The notes under the pieces are model-generated. The model saw only the letters and a list, made by a program, of their open reading frames with translations. It was not told the DNA's origin and made no database searches. Positions 10,750-63,825 of a DNA stretch of 64,000 nt are shown in pieces; the first letter of the stretch is position 1, and each line of letters begins with the position of its first letter. Origin of the DNA: Owenia fusiformis. Taxonomy: Eukaryota; Annelida; Polychaeta; Sabellida; Oweniidae. The stretch covers positions 14,368,714-14,432,713 of the forward strand of contig CAIIXF020000007.1 in the NCBI GenBank assembly GCA_903813345.2. The letters are read 5' to 3'. The position numbers and the translations under genes are program-made.

Positions 10750-10852
10750 GTTTCACTCACTTTTGCAACCAAATCTGCAATTAAAGTTGTACGCGGCTGT
10801 TTACTAAAACACCATTGAGTACTAGTATTCGCAGCTACATTAGAGAGGTTAA

Positions 10853-11324
10853 AGCCCGGTATCCACCAATGGGGCAAAATCCCACTTGCCCCATCGAATC
10901 CCAATTTGCCCCATCGAATCCCACGAAGTCCCATGGGACCTTGATGACTTTGCCCCATCTTGCCCAATGGAGTCCCATCAAGCCCCATGGAGTCCCATCA
11001 AATGCCACAGTGCCCCATCGGTGTATGTCGGGCTTCACACAACACGTCATATGATCGAAATTCCCACGATGCCACATGGAAAGAATGAACATGTTCATTC
11101 TCGATGGGACTCCATGGGACTCCGTGGGATTTTGCCCCATCTTGCCACATCGAGTCCCACGTGGGACTTCATGGGACCTCGTGGGACTCGATGGGGCAAA
11201 ATCCCACGAAGTCCCATGGAGTCCCACGGACTTCATGGGGCAAAATCCCAAAAGGTCCCACGAGGTCCCACGCAATATTAAGTCTATGGAGGTCCCAACT
11301 TGCCCCATTGGTGTATACCGGGCT
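10853..11324. mobile_element. GC-rich CCCATGGGAC/GGGGCAAAATCCCA element with terminal inverted repeats
   Basis: Left end AGCCCGGTATCCACCAATGG and the right end's reverse complement AGCCCGGTATACACCAATGG match at 19 of 20 bases. TAA lies at 10850-10852 and 11325-11327 as a possible 3-bp target duplication. Almost the whole interior is built from short self-complementary words (GTCCCATGGGAC, CCCCATCGA, GGGGCAAAATCCCA, TGGGACTTCATGGGAC) on both strands. It therefore stays open in several frames, but the frames encode only reiterated GTSWD/SPTR-type words and are not genes. It lies about 100 bp upstream of the ankyrin gene's start codon. Confidence 0.75.
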
Positions 11325-27000: not shown

Positions 27001-30000
27001 TGTATTAGGTGGCCATTCGACTCAGGACTAATCTTCTTCAAAAGGGACATCTTTCAAGAATGGGGGCTCTTTCAGCCCCAAGTGATTACATATTCCAGCA
27101 GGATAGCGCTCCTGACCCTAGGCCAAAAGTCACTATGGAATATCTGGAGCAAAATACCCCTTGATTCATTAGTCCTGATGAATAGCCGCCCAATACACCA
27201 CTTAACAAAGATTGCAGCAGATTTAGTGAACATAATAAATGTTTTATCGATGATCACATAAAATTATAGAAAATCACATTTTCTAGGAAAATCAGTAAAT
27301 CTCGGACACATGAGCAATTTACCATTAATATTCAAACATCTGACAAAAAAAATTGAAGTCAGTATTAGCTTAAGTATTTGAATGGTAAAATATGCCTATC
27401 CTTAAGTTTCTGTAAAAAAAATTTCATGTCAATACCATAATGTTATGATACTTTTTTTGCCTTCTAAAAAGCTTGCAAATTTTTTTGGCCCACCCTGTAT
27501 GGTTTGTCCGGTTGGATTTGCTTCTCCAGAGAGTTGTTTACTATAGATATGCGCTTTTAATTAATACATGCTCTCATTCACATTAGCGAGTATTTCACTT
27601 CCAGACAAGATACAGCCGATTATTAAGTATTCTATTTTAGACAAGATACAGTCAAGTATTTGCCCTGTGCGATGTTGGTATTACATAATACACAGTCCAA
27701 GAAATGGTCTGTCAATCAAAATGAATCGATTCATATCCACATGTTTAAAGGAATATTCCTTGCCAAACCATCTCTCTCCTCATATGGTAGCTATAACCAT
27801 ATATATGCCTGCCATGTTTAGCAAAACACGCAAAAATGTTTTGATATGATTAAATTTGATCACTTAGAAATGTGCTGCTCAATTCCAGTAAGCTGCCATC
27901 TTTTAAAATTTCACACAGGAAGTGATGTCATCGACTCTCAACTTTGCATATAGCATTAGGTGAGGAGCTATTAAGAATTACAAAACCAGCTAAATATTAT
28001 TTTTCAACTTTGTATCTTATTTAATCCTTCTGAAAATCTCTTTGCACAGAAAGTAATGATCACTTGTCTAGAAGTGATTTTGTGCTACTTTCCTATACTG
28101 TTATGGGTAATTAAGGTTATAGAAGTTGAGAGTTGATGACATCACTTCTTGCAAGAAATCTTAAAAGATGGCAGCTCACTGGAAATAAGCACTAGATTTT
28201 TAAATGATCAATATTGACCATATTAAAACATTTTCCCATGTTTTGTTAAATATAGAAACTATATATATATGATTATAGCTACCATATCAAGAGAGAAAGG
28301 GTCTGGCAAGGAATATTCCTTTAAGGCCAGGGTGCATGTTCGGAATTTTACTACATTCCTCAGTTGAGTCACATGTTATTTTTCAAACAGGAATCACTCC
28401 TTCACCACATTGTCCGCACCTTTCAGTTTTGCACAAAGAATGTACTTACATGTATGTGCCTAGAAAAGACTGGTGAGAAGATTTGTTTTGTAAAATGCAT
28501 AAAAACGAGAAACTTCAGCGAAAATGTTTTCTGAAAATTTTACTGAATTTTCTAGTTTTTTATACAATCATTTTATCAAAACATTCTTCTCTACATTCTT
28601 TTCTAGGTACATTATTGCACTTGTTGTGCAAAAGTGAGAGATTTAGACATTGTGGGGACGGAGTGATTCAAATTTGAAAAATAACGTGACCCTATTGACG
28701 GTTGCAGCAAAATTTCGAACATGCACAATGACCCGACCTGACCTCGTTGTTTCAGGCAAAATCGTTAAGATTAGCATTTACCTTTCCAAAAAGCTCGAAA
28801 TTTGCAAATAATATCTGGGAATTTCGAAGGGAGATTTTGAAAGAACTTTCAACAGTTCTGGCAAATATGAAGAGACAGAAGTCAAGAGCAAACATGAGGA
28901 AGTTCCTGAAAAAGTATAAAAAATTATGCCAAGATCTCGAAGTGTGGATAAATACAAGAACAACACAAAAGCCTTGCCCGACACAAGTTCCATGTCCAAC
29001 CCAAGAGTCATGTCCCACACAGGAACCATGCCCGACAGTCACATCATGTCCCACATACAAACCATGCCCAACTACGCCACGTAAAGGTATAGCATATTGC
29101 TCACTTAATTGTCAAACGACAGTCGAACCCAGTACGCGTTCTTTCCAATCTGTAATAATTTATATGTATTCTATCCAATGGGCTATATTTTATCATATGT
29201 TTTCGATTTTCTCATGCACATTTTAGTATTCTAACTTGATCGGTGAATAAGTCATAACTTTAACAATGTTTTGGCATTTTCTATAGATGCAGAGATGGAT
29301 GACAACTTTATCATACTTGTGGATACATTTCAAGACTCGGTCTTCCAGATTGACGCCAACGACCCAAATAATTATCGCTTGGTCACTAAAACTGGCTCAA
29401 ATCCCGTAGCCATAGCGTATGATCCGGTTGACAAACGGATATACTTTACAGATGTCGATGAGAAGACCATCAGAAGCGTCGGTTTAGATGGATCTGGTTC
29501 AGAGATCATCAAGAAACTCGGAGCTGGTACATTTTCTATTACCTCGATATCATTTTGCCAACTAAACGGGTTGTAGGAACATTGTGTTCTTTTTTTATCT
29601 ACTATACAGGACTACATCCTTTCCCGATTTACTAGGTATGAACGGCTGTATGGTAATTGTTTTGTGTGTTTTGTGTTCTTTTAGATTCGGTACCAGATGG
29701 TCTTGCCATTGAGCCAAATTCGAGACTTTTGTACTACGCTGACGCAGGGCGAAATAGTATTTCCGTGATGGCTTTAAATGGGTCTTGCGAGAGAACATTA
29801 GTGCATGACAATATTACCCATCCAAGAGCAATTCAGCTAGACATTATCAACAAGTAAAGAGATGACATTATCCCTAGATGATTTGCCCAGTTACATTTTA
29901 ATCATTCATTTCCAATTCATGTAAATCTGTAATGACAGATATTGATCATTTTGTAATTTTGTAATTTTATATGTTAAATATAATTCACATTGGATATATA

Positions 30001-38800: not shown

Positions 38801-39610
38801 CAAACTGGTATCTAATAGACCGATATGTAGTGTCTGCCATGTATTGAAGGTAAACAATCTGCATTATTAATGTTACTTCTATCAATGCATGGATTGTGCA
38901 ATGGAAAAGCAATGGCACAATCAAAAATGTGCATATCAATCGTGAATATATCTCGGTTTAAAGCTTATTTCCAACAGAATCGTGTCAAAATATGTGTCTG
39001 AGTATCGCAAACTCTTACCAATTATCAGCCGAATGGCTCATTTTCAACGAAATGTCCTTAAGACAACAGCCCTGGGTCGCGCCGAGACCAAAAACTATTT
39101 CAAATAGCCCTCCCCTAATTATATTGGATAATCACATTTATGCCTGCGCGCGCAGCTCATCCACTGAACGAAACGCCACTTCCCGCTGAAATCACCGGGT
39201 ATTGATCTTTCCCTTGGTATATCTTTATAGGTTTGGCAAAACAGAAGTTTTCATTGGATGACATGATACAAGCCTGTCAATGTTTCAATCTTAATGCTTT
39301 AATTAATAACAAAAGTTCAGGACGATAAAATCGCCAAACATAAACAGGCTATCAAGTTATCAAAGAAGTGACTCCTGGTTGACAAACTTATGAATGGGGT
39401 GTATATTTGTAACATCGACCATTTTTGAGGACTACTAAGTTAAATATTGAGATGAGGTTTCAATTTACTTCCCTTTGTCTAATTGGTCAGGATGAAAAAT
39501 AAAGGTGTAATGAGAGCACCACTGTTTTGAGTTTAAACTATTGTTTACATTGCGTAAACTTTATTTACTTTTATGCTTTAATGCAAAATTTATTAATTTT
39601 AGTTCACAGA
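35838..39610. other. Gene-free stretch between the two propeller genes
   Basis: AT-rich DNA. Frames of 60-77 codons (for example 37196, 37560 and 38992) have no domain, signal peptide plus exon structure, or splice support. The segment should include the promoter and any 5' untranslated exon of gene B, which I could not delimit. Confidence 0.45.
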
Positions 39611-42600
39611 ATGACCTATCAAAACCCTGTGTTCGGAACTTCATTCCTTCCTGAGACAGAGGAAGGGCGCAATCGTGGTATTAAAGTAGGTATCTACGAA
39701 GACATACCAGATGATGATGAGCATCAACATTACCAGGCACTGAAACCTCCCGGGGATGAACACGAGTATGCAACATCGTTTGGAAACACAGCAGAAGCAA
39801 CATACCCGATTTACCAAACCCTCAGAGGACAAGGCAATGTGGATCAAACATACACATCTCCGTCGTATAATACTAGGAGACTAAACAAATCTTCATGTTT
39901 GAAATCAAAGTCGTGCAAAGTGATCATCGCCGTTTTATCAGGCATTGCAATTCTAATCGGCGGGGTTCTCATTGGGCTGTTTATATTTGGAAAACACAAT
40001 GGTAAGCCAGGGTTAAGTCTCGATCATGATCCAGGACTAGAACCAGGAAGTTCTCTGGTTTGGTTCGACATTCTGTTAGATATTTAGAAATTCATTTCGA
40101 TATCACTGGTGATCCACTCGATTACGCTGGACAAAATGTCGGAACATCGAAGGTACGATTTTTCTTTTTTCCTTATTTCACACGTTGTACGCAGAATTAA
40201 ATCGACGATTCTGTTGTCTTCTGAGCTATTTTTTCGCAAACATGTACATTTTCTAAAACATATGATACTGATATACGTTTGTGAGAAAAAAACGTCGTGG
40301 GGATTATGCCTACAACTCTTGAAATAAGGAAAAAAGAAAAATCGTACCTTCGACGTTCTGACATTTTGTTACCGAAACCAGCGTAATCGAGTGGATATGA
40401 ACTGAAAGAAGACAAATTCGTTGTGTTCAGTTTTAGTTATAGTTCCGAATAACTGAACCTTACAAGTTCAGTAAAAATGACACAATCTTTTAATTAGCAA
40501 TATAAGCTGTCCCCGGGATCGTCCAATATTTGTTGAAATCAGGAGAGTGCATCCTTAGGGAATGCTCATCAAAACTCAAATGTTGAATTACCATATTATT
40601 CCAACATCTTGTTTAGAAATGTTATTTTTTCTCAACATTTAGATTACACAAGCTCTCCCATGGAATCGCGTGACACAACACTGATAACAACTGGTTCGAC
40701 ACAAAGGCAACAAGTTACAAGAACATCAACGATATCAGGACAAGTCAGAACCACACAAACAAATGGAACGACGACATCATTCACCACAATAAAAACAACA
40801 ACCTCCACTCCATTAATAGGTATGGTCATCGTTCGTTTGGACATTTCCATTTATTATTCGAATCTCGTTTTTGTCGGTACCTTTTTTGTCGCCTCTGTCG
40901 TTTTATCTTTAACCTATGTATTCTTGGTCTTTAATGAAGATGAAGTGATGGAGGACAACTTTATCGTATTTGTGGATACATTACTTGAATCGCTCTATCA
41001 GATGGACACACATGACCCTCTTAGATATCGCAAGGTCGCTAAGACTGGCCCAAACCCCGTGGCTGTTGCGTATGATCCCGTTGGAAAACGAATATACTTT
41101 ACAGATGTCAACGAGGAGACCATAAACAGCGTCGCCCTAGACGGAACTGATCTAAAGATTGTCAAGAAGCTTTCTGCAGGTATTTTTGATAATTGAAAAA
41201 GCTTCCGTCTTTTCACCAAGTCAACGTGTAGAATTTCTTGACTATGTTTATTAAAGATATCTTTATGTTCATTCAGTTTCTATACCAGACGGTCTTGCAA
41301 TAGAGCCCAATTCAAGACTTTTATATTACACTGACGCCGGACGCAATACCATATCCGTGATGACATTAGATGGATCTCTTGAGAAAACCCTGGTGTATGT
41401 TAACAATAGTAAACCACGGGCAATTCAGTTGGATCCTGTTAACAAGTAAACATATATTATATCCCCCCTCGTACATATAGCATAATTCGATCAACTGTTT
41501 ATAGATCAATAATCTTTATACCTAAGTTGCATCAAAGAGTCGATATAGAACAGCTGGCTTGCTGATTCTCCAAACATTTTATAATTACATCCAACTTGTA
41601 TATTTGTGTATAAATCTTACAAATCCTACAGTTCTAGATCTCTGGTTCAGCAATGAGGGTCGGGGTTTTATGGAAAGACGGTCTATTCTGTTTCATTCTC
41701 TTTGTAGGAAAATGTACTGGTCTGATTGGGGTCTTGGGCAGATAGAGGTCGCTAACATGGATGGTTCAGGCAGGCAATTAGTCACAAACAATACATTGTG
41801 GCCAAATGGGTTGGCCTTAGATGTGAGAAGTAAGTCTAATATCTTAGATTTGATTGAGTGATACACCATCCAATTATCTATCCTCTCTTATGATATGTAA
41901 GCAATTAATGATAAAATACATAGGAATATAGGTATCACAAAAAACGAGACACCTTTTAACAAGTATTTCCTAGGCAATTGATGAACCAAATTCAATGAAA
42001 ATTTGTACAAAGTAGCCTAAGAGCATCATTAACAAGTTGTGAAAATATAAAAACAGATAAAGTAAATATTCTGTAATTAAGTACTAAGAAATTCAAAGTA
42101 GCGTGTCATAAATCCCCATACCTGAGCATTGCGATGAGACCGTGTTTGTACCACCTATTAGGTGATAGCATCTGTTAAACAGTCAAAATAGCTTGGCTAT
42201 ATTGTCTATGGCATTATTTTTGCTTCTTTATTCATTAAATTCAAATATATTCTGTATAGGAAATATTAATATTCGCTAAATCATTTTTCCATTCGGTATA
42301 AACGTTTATATGTTTGTTACAGCAAATTAAGTTTTCAAAATAGCCAATCACTTACTACCATGTGCATTAAATTACATATTTCATTCGCTAAATGATATGT
42401 TTTTGCGTAAATTGTTATGGTATTCCTTAAGAGTAACACATTATAGGCACAATATTGAATTTCTATTTGAACCCTACCGAAATAAGTTTGCCTATATTTA
42501 CCAAATGGTTTATTTTTCTATGACATAGTTGATGCATTTTACCGAAAGCTAATTTGCTATTTACCGAATGCAATAAAGTAATATTCGATAACTTTCGTTG

Positions 42601-58974: not shown

Positions 58975-59890
58975 AAATCCCACCGAACAAAACATAAAGT
59001 TCTTTGTCTGCTGCAACGAATATTTAGAGGGGGCTCATATCTGATGATCATTTCTTATTTTTTATAAAATCACGCAGAAACAGCTGTCTAGCTTCGAAGA
59101 TGCAAAAATAATTTGTATGGATACACTTTAAATCGCGCCATCCATCATCTATAAATGGTGTCACTTTTATGTTAGTCCAGGTTCTGTTATTACACCCTAT
59201 GCAGACGGAGCTTGTAGGAAATATTTGGTGCGGCAGAAATGAGCGTTTTTTCATTTAAAGGAATATTTCTGGAACTAAGCCGTTTTGAGACACCTAATAT
59301 CAATAAAATTGTGAAAATAGAAGTTTAATTCATCATATAGCGACGCAGTTTACATTAAACATCAGTTAACGGGCTTCTTGGCAAAAACATGGAAATGTAT
59401 TTCCTAGTATGTTTAGAGGTTCTGGAAACATTTGGCGTGGTCCAAGTAACAATACATAATATCATCAAGCAATAATCTTTGTTTATTAAGCGTCTGCCGC
59501 ACCAAATATTTAGAGTGGATTCATAGTGACGATCATTTCCTATTTTTTATAAAATCAAACAGACACTGTGTCTAGCTTCCAAGATGCAAAAATAATTTGT
59601 ATGGGCAGTGTTTCTTGAATACCATTTTTATGAATGTTGGGGACGCTGTATACATACGAAAATTAAAAAAAATATAGGTCGGGATCGGTTTAATGCATAC
59701 TGCGTCGCAATAGAATAAATTACACGTCTATCATTTTTACAATTTTATTGATACTCGGTGCCAACTACACATATTTGGCTTAGTATCAGAAATATCCCTT
59801 TAAATTAAAAAATGACCGATGCATCCGCATCAAAAGCTCATTTCTCCCACACCAAATATTTCCCACATGCTACGTCTGCATAGAGTGGTT
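58975..59890. repeat. Duplicated block around a TTAA-flanked MITE (family B copy 2)
   Basis: About 59010-59135 recurs directly at about 59490-59615 (AATATTTAGAG, CATTTC.TATTTTTTATAAAATCA, TGTCTAGCTTC, AAGATGCAAAAATAATTTGTATGG as landmarks). 59259-59799 starts AGGAATATTTCTGG and ends CAGAAATATCCCT with TTAA at 59255-59258 and 59800-59803, matching the end style of 27749-28320. Sequences beside it (ATATTTGGTG.GGCAGAAATGAGC) reappear inverted at about 59840. Non-coding. Confidence 0.6.
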
Positions 59891-60866
59891 ATTAAAAATT
59901 CAACACTTAGCACGAACATTTTGCGCGATCAAGTCTACATTAAACAGAATTCATTAGAGAATTTCGAGTTCATTATCTAAATTGGAGATATTTGGTATTC
60001 CCGGGAGGGCATGTGCAGTTGTGTTCTTTTTGTTGATTTAATCGAATGAGATTACATAGCAGACGACTGGGAATATTAACCCATCTCTATCTTTACTCCT
60101 GGGAAGTTTTTTGTTACTACAAATCTATCGGATATGGACCTTAGATCTAACCCAATTTTGATCTTTCCTATTTTGTATTCCTGTTGCCGTCAAATTTCAT
60201 TTTGGATGTTTGGGTTATATTTCATGATTGAAAATTTTGAAAAGGTGATACATATTCTCTTATCTTGTTCGTCTTGTTCTAAAATTGTTCATCAGGTTGG
60301 ATATTATTTATTAAAGTTAATAAAGCCATATTAATTGGCTTTAACATAAGCTATTAAGACGTTTTTCCTGGCTACAAGAACAGCCCAGTGCCATTAGAAA
60401 CCGAGTATTGGCTTTTTAATTTAATTGACATGTTCCACAGATATATTTAAGATATTTAAAAATAAATATTCCAAAAACTTTGCCATATTTTCGGATCAGT
60501 AGCAGTTTATGATAAAGGAAATGAGAGAACTTGGATCAAAAGGGTTAACAGGGCCTTTGACGTAGCTGATATCTTGTTATTGATAAATTTCTCAATAACC
60601 AATAACAAGTTTCATCGATCGAAAACTTGTTTGGGAATTCGAATCATCTCTTGCCGTGACGTCTACCGATACACAACGTTAATAGATACAATTATATCAC
60701 CAAGAAAGCAATTCAAACAGATGTAAAGTTGCACATCAGGCATATAGCACTAGAGAGTGGGAAGTGTGAAACAGCTGGTGGGCGGAACGGATATTTGCTA
60801 TTACAGGACATTCTATCATATTGGATCATTCTCGAATCCTATTTACCGTACAATAGACTCCAGGCC
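59891..60866. other. Upstream region of the WYGARFR precursor gene
   Basis: This should contain its promoter and any non-coding exon. The coding frame stays open upstream to about 60729, but the first ATG in it is 60867. I see no certain TATA box or acceptor. No other gene. Confidence 0.4.
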
Positions 60867-62114
60867 ATGTCCGGGATGGATAGTGTTCATCTGACGTTGT
60901 CAATCATTTTGGCATGTCTTCTAATTCTTGTCAAAGCGGGTGATACACACATAGTAGAGGATGCGGAAAAAGCAGAGGCGGAAAATGTAAAGCGTAAACT
61001 TGCAGATGGAGCAGATCTTGGAAAAGATGGTGATAGTTTGCAGGACTGGACCGAAATTATCAAAAAATGGTACGGCATAAGGAATAGACAAAACCAAAAT
61101 GTATTCCCACAAGACTCGCCAATTGATAAAAAATGGTATGGCGCAAGATTCCGACAAGACGTGCCAACGGATAAAAAATGGTATGGCGCTAGATTCCGAC
61201 AAGACTCGCCAATTGATAAAAAATGGTATGGCGCAAGATTTCGACAAGACTCGCCGATTGATAAAAAGTGGTATGGTGCAAGATTCCGACAAGACTCGCC
61301 AATTGATAAAAAGTGGTATGGCGCTAGATTCCGACAAGACTCGCCCATGGATAAAAAATGGTATGGCGCAAGATTCCGACAAGACTCGCCAATTGATAAA
61401 AAGTGGTATGGAGCAAGATTCCGACAAGACTCGCCAATTGATAAAAAATGGTATGGCGCAAGATTCCGACAAGACTCGCCCATTGACAAAAAATGGTATG
61501 GCGCAAGATTCCGACAAGACTCGCCAATTGATAAAAAGTGGTATGGAGCAAGATTCAGACAAGACTCGCCAATTGATAAAAAGTGGTATGGAGCAAGATT
61601 CCGACAAGACTCGCCCATGGATAAAAAATGGTATGGTGCAAGATTCAGACAAGACTCGCCAATGGATAAAAAGTGGTATGGAGCAAGATTCCGACAAGAC
61701 TCGCCCATGGATAAAAAGTGGTATGGAGCAAGATTCCGACAAGACTCGCCCATGGATAAAAAATGGTACGGTGCAAGACTACAGGCTCGTCTAAATTCAC
61801 CAAGTTATATGAGTGCGGTTAAGAAATGGTATGGGGCGCGACTACAGAAGCAACAAAGGTATCGACCTTCAGGATATAGGTATCGTTATGGAAGTACAAA
61901 CAAAAGAACAATGGATGAAGAATTCGATGAACACAATAGCGATCTCGGAGACCTGAGCAAAGAATCGGATGACAACGAATCTCACAACCAAGTACTTGAT
62001 GAGAACAATCTAAGCGAAGGGCTACTCCAAGCTTGGAAAAGAAGTCGATTTGATAGCAGTGACGATGATTTAGAACAGTTCGATTTGAATGATCTACAGT
62101 CGTGGAATGAATGA
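60867..62114 (+). CDS. Secreted peptide precursor with 17 KKWYG units
   Basis: A 415-residue frame in one exon. The first ATG is 60867, with a second at 60876. A signal peptide follows (MDSVHLTLSIILACLLILVK, AG). After an acidic spacer come KKWYGIRNRQ, 14 units of KKWYGARFRQDSPID (Ile or Met at position 14; the first has VPTD), then two diverged units, KKWYGARLQARLNSPSYM and KKWYGARLQKQQRYRP. An acidic tail (DEEFDEHNSDLGDLSKES) with KR and KRSR sites ends QSWNE. KK before each Trp is a standard prohormone-convertase site, predicting about 14 copies of WYGARFRQDSP(I/M)D. Trimming at the internal Arg is possible, which would give pyroglutamyl QDSPID fragments. No Gly precedes the basic sites, so C-terminal amidation is not predicted. 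The layout is that of a neuropeptide or peptide-hormone precursor. I do not recognise the family. A secreted cationic structural or adhesive protein is the alternative. Confidence 0.85.
   Translation: MSGMDSVHLTLSIILACLLILVKAGDTHIVEDAEKAEAENVKRKLADGADLGKDGDSLQDWTEIIKKWYGIRNRQNQNVFPQDSPIDKKWYGARFRQDVPTDKKWYGARFRQDSPIDKKWYGARFRQDSPIDKKWYGARFRQDSPIDKKWYGARFRQDSPMDKKWYGARFRQDSPIDKKWYGARFRQDSPIDKKWYGARFRQDSPIDKKWYGARFRQDSPIDKKWYGARFRQDSPIDKKWYGARFRQDSPMDKKWYGARFRQDSPMDKKWYGARFRQDSPMDKKWYGARFRQDSPMDKKWYGARLQARLNSPSYMSAVKKWYGARLQKQQRYRPSGYRYRYGSTNKRTMDEEFDEHNSDLGDLSKESDDNESHNQVLDENNLSEGLLQAWKRSRFDSSDDDLEQFDLNDLQSWNE
61128..61757 (+). repeat. 45-bp coding tandem array, 14 units
   Basis: Fourteen exact 45-bp units (630 bp) encode KKWYGARFRQD plus SPID, SPMD or VPTD. 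Variation is confined to a few synonymous sites (AAA/AAG at the second Lys, GGC/GGT/GGA at Gly, GCA/GCT at Ala, CGA/AGA) and the Ile/Met codon (ATT/ATG), a sign of recent unit homogenisation. Because 45 is a multiple of three, the other frames stay open too and create long false frames on both strands. Confidence 0.97.
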
Positions 62115-62222: not shown

Positions 62223-62228
62223 ATTAAA
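62223..62228 (+). terminator. Possible poly(A) signal (ATTAAA) of the peptide precursor
   Basis: ATTAAA lies about 109 nt after the TGA stop at 62112-62114, the first common signal variant downstream. Confidence 0.4.
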
Positions 62229-63825
62229 TTGAACATAAATGTTATTTTAAGTTAAAATGGCGAAGTCACAATTGGCAAAAGATATAAAAAGAAAATGCTA
62301 CTTGGTATTCAAGAGGTTGAATATTTACCATATGTATGGATATGGTTATGTATGGTCGCAGAGTTGTTCTCAACTACGTATAGTACTCGTTCTAAGTCTC
62401 AAAAGCTTATAATCTCAAAACTATTCTGGATCTTAAGTTCATGTTTATTTGTTTTTATCTCAACCAATAGACACTGAAGAACTTTAGCTGCATGATTTTT
62501 CATAACATTTTACGTGCCTCTGCTGGCGTTACTCAAATATTTTACAATTATTTTGAAAAATAATTTCCTGAACAAGTCATACAATTTCAACATTTTAGAC
62601 AAGAGGGTAAATAACCTTTGGTTGCCACTACACTTTCTTCAAACCAATGAACTTCTTTTATTGGTTTGTGTCTCTTTGTTTTGTTTTCTTATGAATTTTT
62701 TTATTGGTCTATGACTAACGTCAACCACGTCTTATCGCCATCGCTGATTGGTCGAAAAACGTTTCATTGATCACGTCGATGAAACAAAATGAACAATTCA
62801 AACTTTGGTAGAGACGCTTCGTTTCAATACAAAATAGTATCTGGTGTAATTAAGGAATGCTGTAATATACTTTTGTATATCAAAATAAAGAAAGCTGTAA
62901 GAAATGCGTTTATGTCAATTACTTAAAAAAACTTCACATCGATGTATAGTATTCTGATGATAGGTGTTGAAAAAGTGCACGAAACGAGACCAAGAAAAAA
63001 CATAGGGCCAACCATTAACTAAGATTTGTATCCTCTTATTTAAGGAAAAGTAAGTTTTAAGATTGAGAATAGGAGTTTATAAAGACTTGTAATGCAATTC
63101 AAAATTTCTCCCATTTTGAAATTCTCCTATTTGAAATGTCGTTGCTATAACGGGTAGCCAGGGTAACCAAGGTATGCACCCCTAGACCTCTAGTTCGCGA
63201 AATGCTCAATCTTAAAGTTTACATTCAATATAAACGATAAGATTATATTCAAGACTAATTATTCAAATTAAACTATTTTGGTAGTTCGAATTTTCATGTA
63301 CTGAAAAATTTGTTCTCTGTTTCCTGCCGTGTGGTTACATGGCTCGGATATTCATATCATTTCTATTTTGATGTGTTGACAGAGGATCGAATATAATCAT
63401 TCCGACCCCCATTGTAACGTTTATGCACATGCGTGCCGTCTATCTTATATTGGTCTCATCCTGATCTATGCGAACCTTCAGTTGTGGGTACGCAGTTTAG
63501 TCGCAATAATTTTGGACTACAGGCTAATATGTGTCATTAATTTAAATGTAATTTTGTGTTCGTATATTGTAATACACACGAGTTAAAAAAACTATTGTAT
63601 TGTTTGATGTATATTGATATTCTGTACAAGGCTCTAATAAAGGGCTGTCTTTATCTTGGCCTTTGCTTAATCCGATCAGAAACCATGAATTTTTAGAAGT
63701 GGTCATATCTAGCCCTTTGTTTGATTTCTCAATGAGAAATTGGACGGGTACTTTACTCTTGGTATTTCACAATTAGTGGCATTTATTGTGATATTTGAAT
63801 CATCTGTTATACAGGCCTCCTAGAC
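62229..63825. other. Gene-free stretch right of the precursor gene
   Basis: AT-rich. Frames of 60-66 codons show hydrophobic runs without start context or exon support. I see no element ends here. Confidence 0.45.

Follow-up and report, generated by a model that had tools for sequence, protein, structure and literature searches.

The window, by which we mean the whole 64-kb stretch of Owenia fusiformis DNA that was analysed, carries at 60867–62114 (+) an unbroken genomic reading frame of 415 aa plus stop. The frame starts at the first ATG past an in-frame stop. The encoded protein is composed of four parts: a signal-peptide-like start, an acidic leader, a tandem array of 17 units that each open with KKWYG, and an acidic tail. 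The start (MSGMDSVHLTLSIILACLLILVKA, or a shorter form beginning at Met4; 60867–60938, +) was assigned by eye and from hydropathy. It contains a hydrophobic run spanning approximately residues 9–22, with limits set by eye, followed by V-K-A at the proposed cut, and by eye there is no Lys or Arg in the first part of the proposed signal peptide. The only Cys of the whole precursor, residue 17, lies inside this stretch. The leader (residues 25–65; 60939–61061, +) has a computed net charge of −7 and includes one KR, at residues 42–43. The tail (residues 348–415; 61908–62111, +) has a computed net charge of −18 and also includes one KR, at residues 391–392.

A possible polyadenylation signal, AATAAA, is located approximately 770 bases past the stop codon (62884–62889, +), and an ATTAAA at 62223 lies closer to the stop; both are motif matches only. 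Just upstream of the gene, positions 59193–59887 form an inverted repeat with 56-base arms that are 88% complementary and separated by 583 bases. A second pair of 28-base arms is nested within this element, which resembles those of the small transposon type. A bacterial promoter scan of 60400–60900 gave results at chance level and is uninformative for an animal gene.

Several other features of the window can be described. Two groups of open frames, at 28732–29573 and 39503–41858, have a stretch of 46 protein letters in common. Three of these frames match the LDL-receptor class B repeat of Pfam, one above cut-off (E 1.3e-12) and two just below it, and by eye the two groups look like adjacent copies of a receptor-like gene. 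An open frame at 10838–11320 (−) with recurrent GTSWD, GFCPM and VPRGT motifs appears by eye to be a degenerate DNA repeat and has no Pfam match. Close to the window end, CGCGAAC occurs four times (63835, 63856, 63897 and 63959). No Rfam family is matched at gathering score in the 64-kb window, nor at loci L004 and L005 (C12:26985100-26988400).

Organization and conservation of the repeat array

KK opens all 17 units, WYG directly follows each of the 17 KK of the protein, and a KR closes the last unit, so that every repeat is bounded by dibasic sites at which cutting is predicted. Unit 1 (KKWYGIRNRQNQNVFPQDSPID; 61062–61127, +) is divergent and longer than the units of the regular pattern. Units 2–15 (61128–61757, +) are fourteen 45-base units of the form KKWYGARFRQDSP(I/M)D, except that unit 2 ends in QDVPTD. 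They are followed by unit 16 (KKWYGARLQARLNSPSYMSAV; 61758–61820, +) and unit 17 (KKWYGARLQKQQRYRPSGYRYRYGSTN; 61821–61907, +), which reads WYGARLQKQQRYRPSGYRYRYGSTN and is terminated by the KR at residues 346–347. Expressed as fractions of the array, WYGARFRQDSPID accounts for 8/17 units and WYGARFRQDSPMD for 5/17, together giving 13 exact copies of WYGARFRQDSP(I/M)D; WYGARFRQDVPTD is the fourteenth regular unit, the one with the QDVPTD ending. The three divergent units are WYGIRNRQNQNVFPQDSPID (unit 1), WYGARLQARLNSPSYMSAV (unit 16) and WYGARLQKQQRYRPSG... (unit 17). An earlier note on this DNA had placed the gene at the same coordinates and described 17 KKWYG units with 14 near-identical copies, and these figures were reproduced when the reading frame and its units were recounted. 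The acidic spacer and tail that it described are borne out in part, in that acidic stretches precede and follow the array, and none is found between the units, which abut.

Conservation is greatest at the start of the unit. The counts per position among the 17 units are K17 K17 W17 Y17 G17 A16 R17 F14 R15 Q15, continuing D14 S13 P14 I8 D14. WYGAR is present in 16/17 units and WYGIR in the remaining one, which is the first, as the earlier note had stated, and WYGxR is therefore common to 17/17. The divergent units vary in length and each retains KKWYGxR. QDSPID is retained in divergent unit 1 and is missing from units 16 and 17. The 13-residue peptide contained in a regular unit has one Trp and a net charge of 0. 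Tandem Repeats Finder describes the array as 15 copies of period 45 with 92% matches. In 5000 shuffles of residues 25–415, KKWYG occurs at most once and KK at most 12 times, compared with 17 observed for each.

Because a repeat of this kind could arise by copying alone, the 14 regular units were compared codon by codon, which yields a pS of 0.302 and a pN of 0.025 (pN/pS 0.083). The units differ by 13 distinct single-base variants, nine of which are silent. If the variants are placed at random, 3.3 are silent on average, and 0.0005 of 20,000 draws reach 9. Since the units derive from one another by copying, this value serves as a guide and not as an exact probability. Read in the precursor frame, the mostly silent differences between units point to selection on the peptide letters. 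Three other frames are also open across the array, two on the − strand (305 and 285 aa) and one further + frame (237 aa); we take these to be a by-product of the repetition.

The residues preceding the 20 dibasic sites counted are Asp (15), Val (2), Ile (1), Asn (1) and Trp (1). Gly precedes 0/20, and a scan of the sequence found G[KR][KR] absent throughout the precursor, so amidation is not predicted. The translated sequence therefore lacks a feature shared by many active peptides, which counts against a messenger reading of the gene, as does the lack of Lys and Arg in the first part of the proposed signal peptide.

Known families and the search for relatives

Only one Pfam family, GXWXG (PF14231), matches the whole protein above cut-off (31.3 bits, cut-off 25). 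The best stretch comprises 26 residues that bridge neighbouring units and cover positions 17–47 of the 59-position domain. When the precursor is searched as three pieces, no Pfam match rises above cut-off: a 44-residue piece of approximately three units scores 20.7 bits with GXWXG, below the 25 required, and neither the 102 residues at the start nor the 132 at the end match it. Membership in GXWXG was rejected because the domain is incomplete and the piece falls below cut-off; the whole-protein score is read as a probable repeat artefact, a sum over units. The FecR_C near-match of the whole protein (22.6 bits, cut-off 24.4) is read in the same way. No neuropeptide family of Pfam is matched by the precursor, whole or in pieces, and FARP (PF01581) is not among its matches. 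A search of the PDB returned one match, with E 0.6. In NCBIfam, a prokaryote library, an alpha-glucosidase model reaches 20.2 bits against a cut-off of 650 bits and was dismissed. In the prokaryote genome collection five stretches fit a search pattern, none of which was confirmed.

An FMRFamide gene in the same genome served as a control for these comparisons. An FMRFamide-repeat query identified an array on contig C6 (C6:23755400-23758400) whose open frame, 489 aa long, consists mainly of RFMRFGKKDGEDEK-like units and contains 23 FMRFGK. Pfam FARP matches it with E 7.5e-45 over 21 stretches, and the profile library thus does recognise a known neuropeptide family. The control resembles the WYG gene in having a long array of near-identical tandem units in one open frame with both KK and KR. 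It has 50 dibasic sites (19 KK, 30 KR and 1 RR), showing that KK sites do occur in a multi-copy precursor of the same animal; KR is the commoner pair there, whereas all 17 unit openings of the WYG gene are KK, a difference that tells against the messenger reading. The two genes also differ in that the control has Gly before its KK and KR (22/50 dibasic sites) and acidic spacers, whereas the WYG gene has no such Gly and its units abut. The signal-like start of the WYG gene lies within its frame. In the control frame the first Met is residue 33 and a signal peptide is absent; if the gene is complete, another exon must supply one.

Amidated families (FMRFamide, MIP, RGWamide, tachykinin and others) were rejected for the WYG gene on the absence of Gly before its basic sites. 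Tachykinin-related peptides have the form FxGxR-amide, and WYGAR is similar with Trp in place of Phe. The tachykinin motif forms the end of its peptide, however, whereas WYGAR opens the presumed peptide and has no Gly after the Arg, hence no amide. Precursors of the pedal peptide/orcokinin class are multi-copy and give long unamidated peptides; by eye, the sequence core of that family is not evident in WYGARFRQDSPID. Opioid (proenkephalin-type) precursors contain unamidated peptides between dibasic sites, with a kept N-terminal end, a YGGF core and a Cys-rich leader. The WYG gene is without YGGF and has one Cys only, hence no Cys-rich leader. Opioid precursors are reported in the main texts of surveys of Platynereis (PMC3890597) and of nemerteans and brachiopods (PMC8557429). 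The former text also describes annelid WI peptides, which are unamidated, divergent relatives of MIP with a shared W-x6-7-W motif (PMC3890597). These resemble the WYG peptide in being unamidated, Trp-bearing and annelid, but they contain two Trp in the W-x6-7-W spacing, whereas the 13-mer contains one. A holothurian NGIWYamide precursor is named in the abstract of PMC3432112. This peptide is amidated and ends in IWY, whereas WYG in the present gene opens the unit and has no amidation site. The amidation of NGIWYamide needs a Gly after the Tyr, so its coding text can show WYG, and this probably explains the occurrence of WYG in echinoderm neuropeptide-precursor papers.

Searches of the animal's own genome (498,259,871 bases in 525 contigs) by six-frame, motif-pattern and divergent-unit queries did not find a second gene of the WYG kind; a six-frame search of this type can miss weak matches. 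The paralog query consisted of 280 residues with most of the middle units omitted. It gives three matches at the gene and weak ones on contigs C9 (E 2.7e-5) and C12 (E 4.6e-4). The C9 match was discarded because no array is present in any open stretch of at least 50 aa, and the C12 match because it is a DNA repeat with NNELIRKTYGGECKFR-like units and no related frame. At the latter location (C12:26985100-26988400) the long NNELIRKTYGGECKFR tandem repeat adjoins opposite-strand stretches that appear immunoglobulin-like by eye. A query made of the three divergent units gives 16 matches up to E 10, with 14 at the gene and one each on C7 (E 0.142) and C1 (E 5.89). On C1, the largest contig, Hox-like homeodomain matches form a run at approximately 18.0–18.5 Mb.

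The motif-pattern search of the same genome returned 27 matches, 17 at the gene and 10 elsewhere, compared with 18 for a reversed control pattern. Because the pattern needs Lys first, it does not detect units that open with RR or RK. Eight of the 10 off-gene matches were inspected (all except C3:6329177 and C4:30240344), and these are single motifs in open stretches of 13–56 aa with no array.

In the literature, WYG is absent from the main texts of five papers (PMC3890597, PMC8557429, PMC6425005, PMC10880339 and PMC9977687). Text searches for KKWYG/KRWYG, for WYGAR-type strings and for the 13-mer also returned nothing relevant. The literature search covered main texts, whereas precursor lists are kept in supplements, so the peptide may nevertheless have been published. 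The WYGxR peptide family is unnamed in the sources searched and known so far from one genome, the sole animal genome searched.

Interpretation of the putative precursor

We consider that the gene is probably the precursor of secreted messenger peptides, that is, neuropeptides or peptide hormones, with or without an inner cut. As a multi-copy peptide precursor it is most likely a kind of gene already known. The earlier note had recognized the layout of a neuropeptide or peptide-hormone precursor, and the KK-opened units, hydrophobic start and acidic flanks in the translated sequence lend support to that proposal. Its prediction of an unamidated product is in keeping with the lack of Gly ahead of all 20 dibasic sites, the conserved WYG end that it pointed out is borne out by the 17 units, and the failure to match a named family that it reported was repeated here in Pfam and in the main-text literature searches.

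In the proposed pathway, the chain would enter the secretory pathway, a prohormone convertase would cut at KK, and a carboxypeptidase would trim both Lys. This would free 14 unamidated 13-residue peptides, eight ending in PID, five in PMD and one in VPTD, the I and M forms having calculated masses of 1609.76 and 1627.72 Da, respectively, and the QDVPTD form matching the I form in mass. Units 1, 16 and 17 would yield longer WYGxR peptides. A receptor would be expected to read the N-terminal end of the peptide, because WYGxR alone is common to all 17 units. The conservation of KK together with the five residues after it is what would be expected if KK is cut and the receptor reads the new N-terminus.

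Cleavage may also take place behind the Arg that ends WYGAR or WYGARFR, which leaves the 13-mer as one among several possible products. The sub-case of the messenger-precursor reading in which this inner cut frees WYGAR(F/FR), with calculated product masses of 651.31, 798.38 and 954.48 Da, and leaves QDSPID as a spacer seems doubtful to us. It is favoured by the Lys at P6 of R7 and at P8 of R9, positions at which Lys can favour single-Arg cutting, and by the distribution of the two segments, with QDSPID missing from units 16 and 17 and WYGAR present in every unit but unit 1. However, divergent unit 1 retains QDSPID, and double-basic sites are a stronger cutting signal than a single Arg.

Other explanations depart from the messenger reading altogether. 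The array could instead be part of a repeat protein secreted for structure or adhesion, for example in the tube or a glue, with mineral binding or cross-linking by Trp, Tyr, Arg and Lys and with KK pairs that supply charge and are not cut. Owenia is a tube dweller, and the repeat adhesive proteins of the sandcastle worm contain Tyr, Gly and Lys-Lys within the unit; the 15-residue units here contain Tyr, Trp, Lys and Arg and abut without spacers. A single-sequence fold model also places 11 strands within residues 91–300, one per unit, but with low confidence (mean pLDDT 49.2, pTM 0.29; 48–56 in ten-residue blocks over these residues), at which the strands are no evidence. The model is too weak to use and if anything leaves room for a structural role. 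We nevertheless regard such a role as unlikely, since KK and the next five residues are the part retained even where the length of the unit shifts, long and strongly acidic stretches flank the array, and the precursor contains 6.3% Gly and 9.2% Ser plus Thr, less than is usual in proteins resembling silk or glue. Antimicrobial, skin-secretion and gamete peptides are also made from precursors laid out in this way, and cutting at KK could release non-neural secreted peptides of this sort, a free 13-mer with aromatic and basic residues being compatible with that role. Typical antimicrobial peptides are cationic, whereas the 13-mer is neutral overall, and its invariant part is short and N-terminal, as in a receptor ligand; we therefore think this outcome quite improbable.

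That the frame is functionless, and merely a product of the expansion of a 45-base tandem repeat, we hold to be extremely unlikely. Tandem arrays can keep frames open, as the three additional frames across this one illustrate. Against this, most differences between units are synonymous when read in the precursor frame, and the signal-like start, the flanks and the boundary sites would be unexpected for a random array.

For a secreted messenger precursor, a narrow distribution would have precedent in Platynereis. The main text of PMC3890597 reports 98 Platynereis precursors, some annelid-specific and some species-specific, for several of which no relative was found outside Platynereis, and that of PMC8557429 describes 72 precursor groups in a survey of nemerteans, brachiopods and phoronids. 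The precursor described here may be one more lineage-restricted case. It is very improbable that the WYGxR peptides are the first member of an unamidated annelid family with an N-terminal ligand end and also the missing ligand of an orphan spiralian receptor, perhaps of the proctolin type. With its many copies, lack of amidation and invariant N-terminus, the peptide would be a convenient ligand to try on receptors that have none assigned.
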